Shown piece after piece: positions 14,782-39,392 of a DNA stretch of 64,000 nucleotides. Source of the stretch: an uncultured Ferrovum sp. (GTDB lineage: Bacteria > Pseudomonadota > Gammaproteobacteria > Burkholderiales > Ferrovaceae); contig CAIVHB010000161.1 in the NCBI GenBank assembly GCA_903905585.1, positions 1 through 64,000 on the forward strand, in the 5' to 3' direction. The stretch's first letter is position 1, and the number at the start of each line of letters is the position of its first letter. The notes under the pieces are model-generated. The model searched no databases. It had not been told where the DNA came from and saw only the letters and a program-made list of their open reading frames with translations. Made by a program: the position numbers and the translations under genes.

Positions 14782-15603
14782 ATGACTAATATTCAAACCA
14801 CCATTGATGAAGCATTTGAACATCGCCAAGACTTTTCACCCTCAAATGCCCCAACGGATTTAGTCAACGCGATCGAAACAGTGATCGCAGGATTAGATAC
14901 AGGCACGTTACGCGTTGCTGAAAAAATCAATGGCGAATGGCATACCCACCAATGGATCAAGAAGGCAGTGCTGCTCTCCTTTCGTCTGCGTGACAACGGT
15001 TTAATGGAAGGTGGCGAGACCCGATATTGGGACAAAGTAGAGAGTAAGTTTGCGCGCTACAGCGATGCAGACTTCAAAGCAGGCGGCTTTCGTGTCGTTC
15101 CTCCCGCCGCAGCGCGTCGCGGTGCCTTTATTGCCCGCAATGCTGTTCTTATGCCCTCTTATGTCAACATTGGGGCCTATGTAGATGAAGGGACCATGGT
15201 CGACACTTGGGCGACGGTGGGTTCCTGCGCGCAGATCGGAAAGAACGTACATTTGTCGGGCGGAGTAGGTATCGGCGGCGTTCTAGAGCCCGTCCAAGCA
15301 AACCCCACCATCATTGAAGACAACTGTTTTATTGGTGCCCGCTCTGAAGTTGTGGAGGGCGTCATCGTTGGAGAAGGTTCAGTCATTTCAATGGGGGTAT
15401 ACATAGGCGTCAGTACCAAGATCTATGACCGCGAAACCGGTACCGTGACCTATGGCCATATACCTCCTGGATCGGTGGTGGTGTCGGGTAACTTACCGGC
15501 AGCTGATGGAAGCCATAGTCTTTACTGCGCCGTCATCGTAAAAAAAGTGGATGCTAAAACCCGCGCCAAAACCAGCATTAATGAGCTATTACGAGGCGAC
15601 TAA
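14782..15603 (+). CDS. dapD: Tetrahydrodipicolinate N-succinyltransferase DapD
   Basis: Transfers succinyl from succinyl-CoA to tetrahydrodipicolinate, committing it to the succinylase lysine/mDAP route. The 273-residue length equals that of the E. coli enzyme. An N-terminal helical domain is followed by a left-handed beta-helix built of hexapeptide repeats (about residues 105-225: [35 protein letters not shown]) and a short C-terminal domain. The gene follows dapC and precedes, across an inserted reverse gene, dapE. Confidence 0.97.
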
Positions 15604-15607
15604 AGTT

Positions 15608-15643
15608 GGCTGGGCTTTCAGCCTATCAAGGCAATCGATAGGC
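15608..15643. terminator. Overlapping inverted repeats between dapD and the quinoprotein gene
   Basis: Two mutually exclusive hairpins can form in the 3' junction of the convergent genes: GGCTG/CAGCC (15608-15612 with 15619-15623) and GCCTATC/GATAGGC (15621-15627 with 15637-15643). Neither is followed by a clear T-run. A role in ending transcripts from both sides is plausible but weakly supported. Confidence 0.35.
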
Positions 15644-17365
15644 CCTGAGCACTGAATGGGTGGGACGATCGTTATAGAAAGGGGCGCCAAATAACTTGGC
15701 ATAAGCCGGATGGCGCCGAACGTCCCAACCCGACACTGCAATAATGAATTGGTGTCCGTCTGCTTCATAGCTCATTACACCGCCGGCATATCCACTTTGC
15801 TGGCTATCCTTCCATAGTTTAAGCCCTGTCCCTGCATTGAAGGCTTGCAAGCTTCCTCGACCATCCGCAACAAACACAAGATCCCCTGATGTAGCCAAGA
15901 TACTTGCCAGCGGGGGTTCAGGAAAATCTACTGTCCATACCTTAGATCCTGTCAGAGGGTCACGGGCATCAAGGTGCCCACGGGCCCGCTCATTCTGAGG
16001 TGGTATAGGCGTAACTTTGCCGCCTAGATAAGCGTGCTGTGCAGAAAAATCAGGGTGAGCAGGATCATCCAATGAAACATCCATACACCATTCCGCAGCA
16101 ACCTTATAAATTAAACCCGTCTTTGGACTATAAGCACCTGGCAGCCCAGGAAAAGCGCCATCCACCAAGGGGCACAATCCTTTTTGTTCACCTGCATTAA
16201 AGTCTTTTCGGTCTTTCAAGGCACCTGTCACCCGATCAATTCCACTTACAAAATTGCTATTTTTACTCGCCTGCCAAACCCGCAATAAACGCAAATCAGA
16301 TCCGTAAACAAAAACATAACCTGTACGATTAGGATGCACGATATAGCGAATACCCTTTCGTTCAATCAGTAATGACTCACTTTGAGCGCTATCGAGTACC
16401 CAATTTTCGTGAGGCAATTCCTGATGCCAAAAACGGATTTCTCCACTCATCGGATCAATGCCTAAAAGCCCACCAGAATAAAGATTATCGCCTGGACGCA
16501 CACCATGCGTTTTGAAACTCGAACCCGCGTTATCAAACAAGGGGTAAGGACTTCCCGTGCCCCAGTATAGGGTTCCGCTTCGCTCGTCATAGGCCCCGGG
16601 CATGGCGGCCGCAACGCCTGAGGCTGTTATTTGCGGAACAGAAGAATTGGGTACGGTCCATGTATCAAGTGCATTCCATCTTGCCTGCGACCCACCAGTT
16701 TTAGGCCCACCCACTAAATCTAAACGCCATACCTCTGCTCCGTTTTTAATGTTTAGCCCCAATAGTTCACCATGTTCGCTATTTGATGGGGTAGTTCCAA
16801 CAATAAGTCGATCCTGCACAATCAACGGCGGCCCATTCAGGCTGCTCTTCCGCGTACCTTTGGGCCAAAGACGAACATCCCACCGAACCCCCCCATTGTT
16901 GAGATTAAAGGCGATGACTCTCCCGCCTGCCCCAGCAAAAAACAGGATGCCCCGATCAATCGCTAATCCACGGCACCCCGAATTGATGAGCGCGCTGGAT
17001 TCGCCCGTCTCAGCGACTTTGGTGTGCCATCTCACTTTTCCAGTCGCCCCATCCAAAACCCAGATTTGATCAGCTTCAGCGCAGTAGGCAAGGAGTCCCC
17101 CAGCCGCAACCGGAAAGCTTGTTAGCGCTTCGGTCACATTCTCTGGTTCATGCAACCAAGCGGTTCGCAAGCGCGAAACGTTGTTTGAATTAATTTCATT
17201 GAGTGCGCTGAAATGCCATCCCGAAAGACCACCGTGAATATTTAACCAATCCTGAGTCCCAGCGAACGAATAAAGGGGGATCCATAGAGCGAGGATTAAA
17301 GCAATCCTTGCGCAACTCATTGACTTTTGCAGCCAATTGCGAAGTGATAGGAAAAAAGAAGTCAT
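15626..17365 (-). CDS. Secreted PQQ-type beta-propeller protein (quinoprotein dehydrogenase-like)
   Basis: Resembles pyrroloquinoline-quinone alcohol dehydrogenases. A signal peptide (CARIALILALWIPLYSFAG) precedes a propeller with recurrent PQQ-repeat motifs of the form D-x-x-T-G-x-x-x-W, such as DGATGKVRW, DPLTGSKVW and NAGTGLKLW. The segment YWGTGSPYP...GDNLYS...PHENWVLDS aligns with the active-site region of methanol/alcohol dehydrogenases (GTGNP and PHDEWD). At those positions the usual Asn is Ser and the usual catalytic Asp is Val, so classical activity is doubtful. No cytochrome c domain (CxxCH) is present. The start is uncertain: TTG 17416, ATG 17365 and ATG 17320 are all possible and none has a good Shine-Dalgarno. 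It is oriented opposite to the dap genes that flank it. Substrate unknown. Confidence 0.75.
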   Translation of the reverse strand: MTSFFLSLRNWLQKSMSCARIALILALWIPLYSFAGTQDWLNIHGGLSGWHFSALNEINSNNVSRLRTAWLHEPENVTEALTSFPVAAGGLLAYCAEADQIWVLDGATGKVRWHTKVAETGESSALINSGCRGLAIDRGILFFAGAGGRVIAFNLNNGGVRWDVRLWPKGTRKSSLNGPPLIVQDRLIVGTTPSNSEHGELLGLNIKNGAEVWRLDLVGGPKTGGSQARWNALDTWTVPNSSVPQITASGVAAAMPGAYDERSGTLYWGTGSPYPLFDNAGSSFKTHGVRPGDNLYSGGLLGIDPMSGEIRFWHQELPHENWVLDSAQSESLLIERKGIRYIVHPNRTGYVFVYGSDLRLLRVWQASKNSNFVSGIDRVTGALKDRKDFNAGEQKGLCPLVDGAFPGLPGAYSPKTGLIYKVAAEWCMDVSLDDPAHPDFSAQHAYLGGKVTPIPPQNERARGHLDARDPLTGSKVWTVDFPEPPLASILATSGDLVFVADGRGSLQAFNAGTGLKLWKDSQQSGYAGGVMSYEADGHQFIIAVSGWDVRRHPAYAKLFGAPFYNDRPTHSVLRAYRLP

Positions 17366-17440
17366 GATAAGCATCAAGTTACAGAGAGAATGCAATAGCA
17401 GCAACCCATGATACAAATGAATCCACTACAATCTTAGGCT

Positions 17441-18613
17441 ATGACTTTCTATCACCCCACCGTTGAGTTCGCGATGGAGTTGCTTCGTCGCCCCTCTGTC
17501 ACCCCTGAAGACTGTGGGTGTCAAGATTTAATTGCCGAGCGTCTTAAGCCACTTGGTTTTATAGCTGAAACTATCGAGGCCGCCGGGGTAAAAAATCTCT
17601 GGCTACGCAGAGGAAACCAAGCCCCTTTGCTCGTCTTTGCTGGTCACACTGATGTTGTTCCAACTGGCCCGGAGTCAGCCTGGCTTAGCCCTCCTTTTGA
17701 GCCCACCATCAAAGATGGCTTGTTATTTGGGCGCGGAAGCGCAGACATGAAGTCTTCCTTGGCTGCTTTTGTAGTGGCAATTGAAGAAACGCTGCATGAA
17801 CAACCTCATTTACCTGGTTCCATTGCTTTGCTTCTGACATCAGACGAAGAAGGACCTGCGCGCGATGGAACTGTTCGCGTGGTTGAGAAATTGCAGGCCC
17901 GCCATGAAACGATGGACTATTGCCTAGTGGGTGAACCCACCTGTGTAAGCCGCTTGGGTGACACGATCAAGAATGGGCGACGCGGCTCTTTAAGCGGAAG
18001 ACTGACGGTGAGGGGCATACAAGGTCACGTAGCGTATCCTCATCTTGCTCGCAACCCCATTCATGACATGGCGCCAGCTTTAACTGAATTGGCCTGTACA
18101 CAGTGGGGTGAAGCAAATCAGGATTTTCCTGCCACCACCTTTCAGGTATCGAATATTCATGGCGGAACTGGGGCAGGAAATGTGATCCCCGGTACGGTAG
18201 AACTACTATTCAATTTTCGTTATTCCACTTCTAGCCCCGCAGAGCAACTGCAAACGCGGGCCACAGAAATTCTAAAGCGCCACGGCCTAGAATTCGATTT
18301 AGATTGGGATCATGGTGCCCAGCCTTTCTTAACAGCACGCGGTGAACTAGTGGATGCCTTGCGAGATAGTATTCGCACTGTTACAGGTTTGAAGGCTGAA
18401 GTTTCAACCACGGGTGGAACCTCCGATGGTCGTTTCATCTCGCGCTGGTGTCGTGAGGTAGTAGAGTTCGGCCCCATCAACGCAAGCATCCATCAAATTA
18501 ATGAACATGTCCGCGTGGAAGACTTAGCACCTCTGACTGAAATTTATGCGGGACTCATAGAGCGATTATTAGGCGAACCCTTCCATGACGAAGGGGAAGA
18601 CAATGAAAAGTGA
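17441..18613 (+). CDS. dapE: Succinyl-diaminopimelate desuccinylase DapE
   Basis: Dinuclear zinc hydrolase that releases succinate to give LL-diaminopimelate, the last succinylase step of the route started by DapD and DapC. The M20 motifs are intact: [11 protein letters not shown] (His69, Asp71), [10 protein letters not shown] (metal-bridging Asp102), TSDEEGPA (catalytic Glu plus ligand Glu) and VGEPT. Length 390 residues. The 3' end overlaps prmB by 11 bases. A TACAAT hexamer lies only eight bases before the ATG; if it is a promoter, the transcript would be nearly leaderless. Confidence 0.97.
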
Positions 18614-37205: not shown

Positions 37206-39392
37206 ATGGCACCCATCATGTCAGACCGATTAAACCGAAGTGAGTCCTTGAAGGGCCGCAGACAGGAACAAGCCCACCAATTATTTGGCAAGGGGTTGGC
37301 ATTCCATCAGATTGGGCGATTAGAAGAAGCTGCTGCGATGTATGAGAAGGCTTTAAAAGATCACCCTTATCACTATGACGCACTCCACTTGTTAGGCGTG
37401 ACGGCCCTCCAAAATAATCACCCCAAACGCGCGGCCGAGTTGATTGGTAAGGCGATTGAAATTTTCCCTGATAACCCACATTTCCATAGCAATCGCGGAA
37501 GCGCTCTGCATGCCCTGAATGAATTAGATGCAGCGGTTGCCTCGTATGACCGTGCTATTGAAATCACCCCAGACTTTGCAGAGGCCTTATTTAACCAAGG
37601 TCTCGCTCTTGCAGACTTAAATAAATTTGAAGCTTCGATCGCCAGTTATGATCGAGCCATTTCGATTAAACCGGATTATGCTGAAGCGCATTGTAATCGT
37701 GGCAATGCTTTAGTGAGCTTGGGGCAAATCCATGCAGCCCTGGTAAGCTATGACAAGGCCATCAAGATCAATGCAAACTTTGCAGAGGCATTCTGCAATC
37801 GCGGTTTAGCCCTATCCGAGTTAAAACGCTTCGAAGCAGCAGTTGAAAGCTATCGCCAGGCAATCAGACTTCGCCCTGACTATGCTGAAGCGCATTCCAG
37901 TTTAGGAAGCACATTAGCTGACATGGGAGCATTCGAAGAAGCGATCACACACTATGATCAAGCTATTGCAATCGATTCTAATTATGCGGAAGCTTTCTGT
38001 AATAGAGGCATGGCGCTAAACGACTTGAAGCGATTTGATCATGCATTAGCGAACTATGACGAAGCGATCAGAATCGACCCTTGCTACTATCAAGCCTTTA
38101 ATAATCGTGGTTTGGTTTTGGTTCAGATGCGAAAACTGGATTCTGCAATCTTAAGTTATAACCGAGCAATTTCATTAAGACCAAATTATGCAGAAGCTTT
38201 TAGTAATCGCGGACTCGCCCAAGTAGAACTGGGTCAATTTGAGGCTGCCCTAGAAAGTTATGATAGAGCCATTGAGATCCGTTCAGATTTTGCAGAAGCA
38301 CATAACAATCGGGGCAATACGCTTACCTCACTGAAAAACTTAGATGCTGCGATAGTAAGTTTCGATAAAGCGATTCAGATGAAACCTGATCTTGCCGAGT
38401 TCCACTGGAATCGCTCTTTAGCGCTTCTCATCAGTGGTGACTTCGAGCGTGGCTGGGAAGAATATGAGTGGCGCAGACAGGTTCAAGTTTTTGAGCTCGC
38501 CAAGCAACGTTTCAAACAACCCATTTGGTTGGGAGAGACCTCACTACAGGGCAAGACAATCTTACTTCATAGTGAGCAAGGCCTTGGCGACACCATTCAA
38601 TTTGCGCGGTATACCAAACTTATTGCGAAGGCTGGCGCTAAAATCATCTTTGAAACACAGCCTCCATTGATGCGGCTATTAGAGCAACTTGAAGGGGTCA
38701 ACGAACTGATTCCGAGGGGCGCAGTACCTTCTCTGCCATTTGATGTCCATTGCCCTCTGATGAGCCTGCCTTTTGCACATGGAACGGTGATTTCTACCAT
38801 CCCTCGCGACTTGCCTTACTTGAAGGCAGAAAAAGCAAAGAGCCTAGAATGGAAGTCGCGATTAGGTGAACATCATAAACCGCGGATTGGATTGGTATGG
38901 AGCGGAGGGTTCCGACCCGATCAGCCCGAACTTTGGGCAGTGAATTCAAGACGCAATATACCTCTAGAAAAAATTGCTGAACTCAGGCGTATTGATGCAA
39001 ATTTCTATAGTCTGCAGAAAGGCGAACCGGCAGAAGGTGAATTATCTTTGCGTCGACATTCAGTCTGGCCTGAACCTAATTTCTTTGTGTTTAGCGAAGA
39101 TTTAAAGGACTTTTCTGACACGGCTGCTTTGATCGACAATCTTGATCTTGTCATCAGCGTAGACACTTCAACCGCTCACTTAGCTGGAGCGATGGGAAAA
39201 CCTGTTTGGATATTAAATCGCTATGATGGGTGCTGGAGATGGCTACTGGATACGAATGATAGCCCTTGGTATCCAACTGCGAAGCTATATCGTCAGAAAA
39301 AGACAGGCTGCTGGGATGACGTGATGAAACAAGTCCAGCGCGATCTAGCAGAATTCTGCATCAATTATCACATCGCTTCCTTATTGGCTTGA
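37206..39392 (+). CDS. TPR protein with C-terminal glycosyltransferase-9-like domain
   Basis: 728 residues. From about residue 24 to 415 it has roughly 11-12 tandem 34-residue tetratricopeptide repeats with the recurrent pattern AEA(F/H)xNRGxAL...F(E)AA..SYD(R/K)AI.I.PD(Y/F). The C-terminal 300 residues (RGWEEYEWR to LISVDTSTAHLAGAMGKPVWIL) look like the GT-B fold found in heptosyltransferase-like and TPR-fused proteins of Proteobacteria. No signal peptide or membrane segment is seen. A sugar transfer or protein-binding role is plausible but unproven. Start ATG 37206, or ATG 37218. It interrupts the usual secA-argJ neighbourhood and is on the opposite strand to both. Confidence 0.85.
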   Translation: MAPIMSDRLNRSESLKGRRQEQAHQLFGKGLAFHQIGRLEEAAAMYEKALKDHPYHYDALHLLGVTALQNNHPKRAAELIGKAIEIFPDNPHFHSNRGSALHALNELDAAVASYDRAIEITPDFAEALFNQGLALADLNKFEASIASYDRAISIKPDYAEAHCNRGNALVSLGQIHAALVSYDKAIKINANFAEAFCNRGLALSELKRFEAAVESYRQAIRLRPDYAEAHSSLGSTLADMGAFEEAITHYDQAIAIDSNYAEAFCNRGMALNDLKRFDHALANYDEAIRIDPCYYQAFNNRGLVLVQMRKLDSAILSYNRAISLRPNYAEAFSNRGLAQVELGQFEAALESYDRAIEIRSDFAEAHNNRGNTLTSLKNLDAAIVSFDKAIQMKPDLAEFHWNRSLALLISGDFERGWEEYEWRRQVQVFELAKQRFKQPIWLGETSLQGKTILLHSEQGLGDTIQFARYTKLIAKAGAKIIFETQPPLMRLLEQLEGVNELIPRGAVPSLPFDVHCPLMSLPFAHGTVISTIPRDLPYLKAEKAKSLEWKSRLGEHHKPRIGLVWSGGFRPDQPELWAVNSRRNIPLEKIAELRRIDANFYSLQKGEPAEGELSLRRHSVWPEPNFFVFSEDLKDFSDTAALIDNLDLVISVDTSTAHLAGAMGKPVWILNRYDGCWRWLLDTNDSPWYPTAKLYRQKKTGCWDDVMKQVQRDLAEFCINYHIASLLA

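Follow-up and report, generated by a model that had tools for sequence, protein, structure and literature searches.

The quinoprotein-like gene located between dapD and dapE in the window (the whole 64,000-nucleotide stretch of an uncultured Ferrovum sp. contig analysed here) probably encodes an exported pseudoenzyme: a quinoprotein propeller that has been reused, most likely for binding a protein or a small ligand in the periplasm, and not for alcohol oxidation. Judged from its sequence, it would qualify as a pseudoenzyme in the sense that the catalytic residues are lost and the gene is retained under selection. The gene, P0001, and its immediate neighbours are the following:

14782..15603, (+) strand, dapD, convergent neighbour (TIGR00965, 472 bits; cut-off 375.4)
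15626..17365, (-) strand, quinoprotein-like gene P0001, stop codon included
17261..17365, (-) strand, putative signal-peptide N-terminus of P0001, residues 1-35
17441..18613, (+) strand, dapE, divergent neighbour (TIGR01246, 514.3 bits; cut-off 361.8)

Gene structure and family

P0001 is intact, runs antiparallel to both neighbours, starts with an ATG 75 bases from the dapE start and encodes 579 amino acids. The likeness to PQQ alcohol dehydrogenases that had originally been predicted extends over the full length of the protein. A PQQ propeller domain was recognised by Pfam (E 5e-33), and the NCBIfam model TIGR03075 matched with an E value of 6.5e-82 and 275.8 bits, which is under its 480-bit cut-off and does not qualify P0001 as a member; the intact relatives L013, L014 and L015 (426.8, 446.2 and 432.5 bits) also miss this cut-off. 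The best solved relatives were the quinoprotein ethanol dehydrogenases 6zcv (E 1.8e-45), which we take to be PedH, 1flg (E 1.2e-37), presumably ExaA, and 6zcw, and next came chains of quinohemoproteins and of XoxF-type or methanol dehydrogenases, among them 4mae (E 3.7e-29).

The N-terminus, read by eye, contains a hydrophobic stretch ending in SFA that resembles a signal peptide, in agreement with the original prediction; Met16 is an alternative start, and the N-termini of the four orthologues described below look similar in their sequences. No cytochrome domain had been foreseen either, and in fact no CxxCH motif exists in the whole protein, whose only cysteines are at positions 18, 95, 131, 398 and 427. 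The GC3 of P0001 (0.434) falls within the range of eight other genes of the window (0.413-0.509), and its composition is native. The closest named match came from a contig of an uncultured Ferrovum sp. carrying the orthologue L007, with 76% identity. Elsewhere in the window, positions 37206-39392 encode a protein of 728 residues, largely TPR repeats, whose C-terminal part weakly matches glycosyltransferase family 9.

The dap neighbourhood and distribution of the gene

The genes queF, dapC and dapD on one side of P0001 and dapE and prmB on the other all scored above their NCBIfam cut-offs, and these equivalog calls establish the reversed position of P0001 between dapD and dapE. Among the 61 genomes searched, orthologues were found in four other members of the Ferrovum-like genus (76, 53, 52 and 49% identity). 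The quinoprotein gene adjoins dapE in all five genomes of the genus that were covered and lies between dapD and dapE in four of them. In G003 one extra gene, TANGO2, is placed on the dapD side of the quinoprotein gene; in G002 the orthologue (L009) adjoins dapE and has a TonB-dependent receptor gene on its other side (L040, 10943-12928), dapD being on another contig.

That dapD and dapE are usually adjacent holds within the family: around dapE in 25 loci from other genera, dapD was beside it in 24, in eight of them directly and in the other 16 separated by about 800 bases, and was not seen in the 25th. None of the 24 loci with a readable dapD has a quinoprotein gene between the two. Two further genomes of the family stand outside this count, as G017 gave no locus and G006 no dapE match. 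A gene for a TANGO2 protein occurs between dapD and dapE in two relatives (L041, 7171-8010; L045, 4335-5255) and is missing from that place in the window. Promoter and terminator scans of positions 15500-17700 gave about as many matches as shuffled sequences, and no shared regulation with the dap genes was found in them. The link with the dap genes is positional only and, as G002 illustrates, incomplete even within the genus.

A genome of another family, G047, carries an intact group B quinoprotein gene followed by a cytochrome c gene, also reversed between dapD and dapE (L045, 7241-9130). This gene was considered as an intact positional orthologue of P0001 and rejected, because the tree nests it in group B and the AU test rejects its sistership with the five (log-likelihood 57 lower, p 2.5e-110). 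In genomes sampled from the class (369) and the phylum (398), nothing like P0001 appeared outside its own genome at E 1e-100 when up to three candidates per genome were scored; three extra matches from the phylum sample were intact relatives without the C95 and C131 cysteines. A scan of viral_contigs with alignment A2 returned 10 pattern matches and no relative of P0001.

Active-site residues

The residues of the active site were compared in a 78-row alignment, the five Ferrovum-like rows (P0001, L007, L009, L010 and L011) being set against 73 others. Columns are numbered after SolV XoxF, in which the accessible part of a review gives Glu172, Asn256, Asp299 and Asp301 as the metal ligands (PMC11845868). 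L006, L050_17884 and L058 were left out before the first alignment, and L096, L016, L053 and L105, all under 400 aa, before the tree and the 78-row table; the rows cover part of the matching genes from the 36 genomes with a match. For PQQ contacts beyond the metal ligands, such as the stacking Trp243, Thr153 and Arg331, we use the column names that we take to apply. The columns of interest in P0001, with the residues of the 39 relatives placed in groups A and B, are:

16781..16783, (-) strand, Asn195 at the Glu172 metal-ligand column; Glu in 39/39 of groups A and B; N, S, N, R, Q in the five, in a gappy part of the alignment
16604..16606, (-) strand, Ala254 at the column of the PQQ-stacking Trp (Trp243); Trp in 39/39 of groups A and B; A, A, W, G, G in the five, in a gappy part of the alignment
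16550..16552, (-) strand, Ser272 at the Asn256 metal-ligand column (GTGSP); Asn in 39/39 of groups A and B; Ser in 5/5
16397..16399, (-) strand, Val323 at the catalytic Asp299 column (PHENWVLD); Asp in 38/39 of groups A and B (one Asn); Val in 5/5
16391..16393, (-) strand, Asp325 at the lanthanide Asp301 column, ancestral and retained; Asp in 39/39 of groups A and B and in 5/5 here

The replacement of the Asn of GTGNP by Ser and of the catalytic Asp by Val, with an Asp two residues later, had been read correctly from P0001, and all five orthologues share these three residues. As the Ser and the Val are identical in the five, they are not chance substitutions. As far as the sequence tells, they are not typical of a known active subfamily either, given that none of the 73 other rows has Ser at the Asn256 column or Val at the Asp299 column, and no other residue appears to fill the part of the catalytic Asp. 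The losses go beyond those noticed at first: Glu172 is gone from all five, and the stacking Trp from four, being still present in L009 (G002). At the Thr153 column, Thr occurs in 39/39 of groups A and B versus N, N, S, Q, Q in the five. The Arg331 column has Lys in 39/39 of groups A and B and Arg in all five. This Arg (5/5), the Asn387 column (4/5), Asp301 and His319 are retained, so some ligand could still occupy the funnel. An AlphaFold prediction based on two sequences, P0001 and its orthologue L007, gave a mean pLDDT of 38.4, and the loss of the pocket is thus read from the alignment.

Measured against the PQQ dehydrogenases of TIGR03075, P0001 lacks the catalytic Asp, the ligands Glu172 and Asn256, and the vicinal Cys-Cys. 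The latter is missing from groups A, B and C as well and present in 23 of the 26 remaining rows, and its absence from P0001 is therefore inherited. Since intact relatives also miss both the Cys-Cys and the TIGR03075 cut-off, neither feature separates P0001 from its parent clade.

The Asp had been pointed out as lying at the lanthanide-binding position of XoxF-type enzymes, a hint that turned out to be misleading. With Asp in all 39 members of groups A and B, the residue kept in the five is ancestral and by itself no sign of lanthanide use. Of the four ligands listed for XoxF in the accessible part of PMC11845868 it is the one that is left, its partners Glu172, Asn256 and Asp299 having been lost.

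Gained and ancestral cysteines

Four cysteines of P0001 form two sets of different origin:

17081..17083, (-) strand, Cys95 codon, gained in the clade; 5/5 Ferrovum-like rows, 0/73 others
16973..16975, (-) strand, Cys131 codon, gained in the clade, next to the Arg of the ancestral NRG motif; 5/5, 0/73 others
16172..16174, (-) strand, Cys398, member of the ancestral cysteine pair; 5/5 and 56/73 others
16085..16087, (-) strand, Cys427, member of the ancestral cysteine pair; 5/5 and 56/73 others

According to the register of the propeller W-motifs, assigned by eye, C131 would be placed where neighbouring blades hold PQQ contacts and C95 at a strand end on the same (top) face. C95 and C131 probably form a disulfide near the old pocket.

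The cytochrome partner

Just downstream of 36 of the 39 group A and B genes, on the same strand, there is a gene for a small cytochrome c, located by a CxxCH scan within 900 bases; the same 36 were recovered by similarity to two Pfam-recognised cytochromes, all of them downstream. By the same two approaches, none was found in the stretches around the five Ferrovum-like genes. Within groups A and B, no cytochrome follows L060, L062 or L081; in the case of L081 the contig ends about 300 bases away. In a clade of 45 rows that includes the five, the cytochrome accompanies 36 of the 38 genes with an intact catalytic Asp and none of the seven with a changed one (Fisher p 8e-7, with rows that are related to each other). 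These seven represent three branches, the five, L024 and L060, all without the cytochrome, and the branches are the fairer count. Because L062 and L081 have an intact Asp and yet no cytochrome, the lack of this neighbour does not prove that a gene product is inactive.

Downstream of each of five further intact relatives, from Rhodococcus, Skermanella and three genomes of the phylum sample, lies a gene with CxxCH. This gene is annotated as cytochrome c in both plasmids concerned, those of Rhodococcus qingshengii (L136) and Skermanella mucosa (L137).

The two other changed branches deserve a description of their own. L024 (L048, 7325-9121; G047:C9) is a group A quinoprotein with a separate loss, in which Asp is replaced by Gly and both Asn and Glu by Ala, and it has no cytochrome neighbour. 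In the group B quinoprotein L060 (L098; G070:C1), Asn takes the place of the catalytic Asp; its gene has no cytochrome neighbour, and a gene for a phage-tail protein is found about 3.6 kb away.

Phylogeny, rate and selection

A quick-search maximum-likelihood tree of the 78 rows groups the five together (SH-aLRT 100) within the 45-row clade (SH-aLRT 99), and the stem leading to them measures 1.22 changes per column. Among the other 40 rows of the latter, 38 retain Glu, Asn and the catalytic Asp, the exceptions being L024, with all three lost, and L060, with Asp changed to Asn. An AU test on a 43-row subset did not separate placements of the five with group A, with group B or outside both. The tree program flagged an unusual letter make-up in L009, L010, L011 and L024, and some caution is due with these rows. 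In the same tree, no more than a few hundredths of a change per column separate the XoxF proteins of three members of the genus (G000, G001 and G004), so that the quinoprotein gene has evolved far faster.

P0001 is under purifying selection, with a dN/dS of about 0.08. The reading frame is open in all five genomes, with no stop codons in the orthologues. Between P0001 and L007 (76% identity), dN was 0.161 and dS 1.81 (NG86), giving a dN/dS of 0.089, or 0.070 by YN00, for one species pair whose dS is near saturation, which makes the ratio a rough one. Substitutions between the two numbered 94, 79 and 302 at the three codon positions, a clear third-position bias. Nine neighbouring genes gave dN/dS values of about 0.02-0.10 (one without an NG86 and one without a YN00 value), those of prmB, zipA and ligA being similar to that of P0001. 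The five share 180 invariant positions out of 579, and in a comparison with 38 group A and B rows (L092 and L024 left out, against the 39 used for the cytochrome scan) the residues E320, R347, R362, H538 and D548 were newly invariant.

PQQ and other quinoproteins in the cell

We looked for pqqB and pqqE in the genome of P0001 and found both above their cut-offs. The genome also encodes XoxF and a second canonical dehydrogenase (770 bits, TIGR03075). PQQ should thus be available in the cell, and given pqqB, pqqE and a nearly unchanged XoxF, the losses in the active site are not for want of cofactor. A separate BamB (L006) scored above the TIGR03300 cut-off.

A further quinoprotein, which keeps the Asn and the Cys-Cys and has Gly in place of the catalytic Asp (WGYD / WGMD), was found in the same genome (L056, 6993-8870, contig C59) and in L051 (1-1995). 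In the same family, the 99%-complete genome G008 has four quinoprotein matches (L046, L059) and neither pqqB nor pqqE above cut-off; this organism may import PQQ.

Origin and probable role of the protein

These observations suggest the following course. A PQQ alcohol dehydrogenase of the cytochrome-c-partnered clade would have come to sit beside dapE in an ancestor of the Ferrovum-like genus. There the catalytic Asp, the Asn and Glu that bind the metal, the majority of the PQQ contacts and the cytochrome partner would have disappeared. Retained under selection, the propeller may then have gained its two cysteines, probably as a disulfide beside the old pocket that would stiffen the pocket face. 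At present it would be an exported propeller without PQQ or metal, kept for binding in the periplasm. The original prediction had left two outcomes side by side, an inactive propeller reused for binding and an enzyme with altered chemistry. The missing PQQ and metal contacts, the absence of the cytochrome typical of the parent clade and the purifying selection argue for the former, and the latter is disfavoured as far as PQQ chemistry is concerned, chemistry of some other kind being conceivable.

A PQQ enzyme with altered chemistry would need a new base, for which Glu320 or Asp325 could be proposed if PQQ were still bound. In its favour, none of the five differs at these two residues or at Arg347, the protein retains the Cys398/Cys427 pair along with much of the pattern of the propeller, and the cell makes PQQ. 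Against it, three metal side-chain ligands out of four have been lost, as have the Thr contact and, in four of the five, the stacking Trp; the replacements vary between species at three of the five lost columns, and no cytochrome acceptor is nearby, all of which makes such an enzyme improbable. We give the same low standing to an enzyme or redox protein of another type, in which a C95/C131 disulfide would be redox-active or the funnel would bind and convert a different cofactor or small molecule. This idea draws on the two cysteines, invariant in the five and absent from the 73 other rows, and on the newly invariant E320, R347, R362, H538 and D548, but no catalytic motif was recognised, the cysteines would be accounted for just as well by a structural disulfide, and no partner gene was seen beside P0001.

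A protein that binds or senses lanthanides or other metals through the kept Asp is very unlikely: Asp325 is present in all five and the genome has XoxF, whereas the Asp is ancestral and the Glu, Asn and other Asp of the site, following the ligand set in the accessible part of PMC11845868, have been lost. Hardly credible is a decaying pseudogene. It would agree with the long stem, the fast evolution and the lack of a partner gene, yet the frame is open in the five genomes, dN/dS was 0.07-0.09 in the one pair compared, and the 180 invariant positions of 579 go together with specific gains shared by the five. We therefore favour an exported, non-catalytic propeller. A bolder form of it, which we regard as unlikely, would be a new class of periplasmic protein in which a disulfide-locked (or redox-active) C95/C131 site replaces the cofactor pocket, combined with a new, conserved ligand site at E320, D325 and R347, and which would serve as a sensor or a chaperone-like binder.

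Similarity alone easily leads to quinoprotein-like genes being named PQQ dehydrogenases, and the extra Asp has been described as a signature that helps to identify rare-earth-dependent proteins (PMC11845868, accessible part). P0001 is a counter-example by sequence: it has the Asp and remains under selection, but neither the other residues of the site nor the electron acceptor are left. Being a defined clade that has intact relatives, the five genes also allow a test of how a quinoprotein turns into a non-enzyme.

Comparison with known systems

The nearest proteins by sequence, with up to 41% identity, are PQQ alcohol dehydrogenase-like proteins that lack the vicinal Cys-Cys and are encoded in a cassette with cytochrome c, for example L136 and L137. 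They share with P0001 the propeller family, the Cys398/Cys427 pair, the Asp at the Asp301 column and the absence of the vicinal disulfide. In contrast to P0001, they keep the catalytic Asp, the Asn, the Glu (Asp in L137) and the Trp together with a downstream cytochrome c, and are presumably active enzymes. PedH, ExaA and XoxF belong to the same family by sequence, but P0001 has neither their catalytic Asp, Asn and Glu nor their vicinal disulfide and is under the TIGR03075 cut-off. PedH and XoxF have Asp at the lanthanide column, as P0001 does (PMC11845868, accessible part). The same review, in the part accessible, mentions archaeal quinoproteins without the Cys-Cys whose function is unknown.

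Searches of a library of open-access papers found nothing on empty or pseudo-quinoproteins, TIGR04528 or quinoprotein pseudoenzymes, the one match being on pseudokinases, and only a bioleaching review for Ferrovum together with PQQ. BamB is a PQQ-like propeller that serves as a periplasmic scaffold. P0001 is not itself a BamB, as it scored 65 bits against a TIGR03300 cut-off of 285.2 and the genome has its own. A parallel in concept is TIGR04528 (acido-empty-quinoprotein group A; model name acido_non_PQQ), a methanol-dehydrogenase-like protein judged not to use PQQ. Membership of P0001 in that group was rejected, its 199.7 bits being far from the cut-off of 650 and below the score of the XoxF of the same genome (309.1). 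A further difference is that the host of P0001 makes PQQ. Quinoprotein-like proteins thought not to use PQQ have already been named in NCBIfam; the clade of P0001 does not come near the TIGR04528 cut-off and occurs in cells that have PQQ genes.
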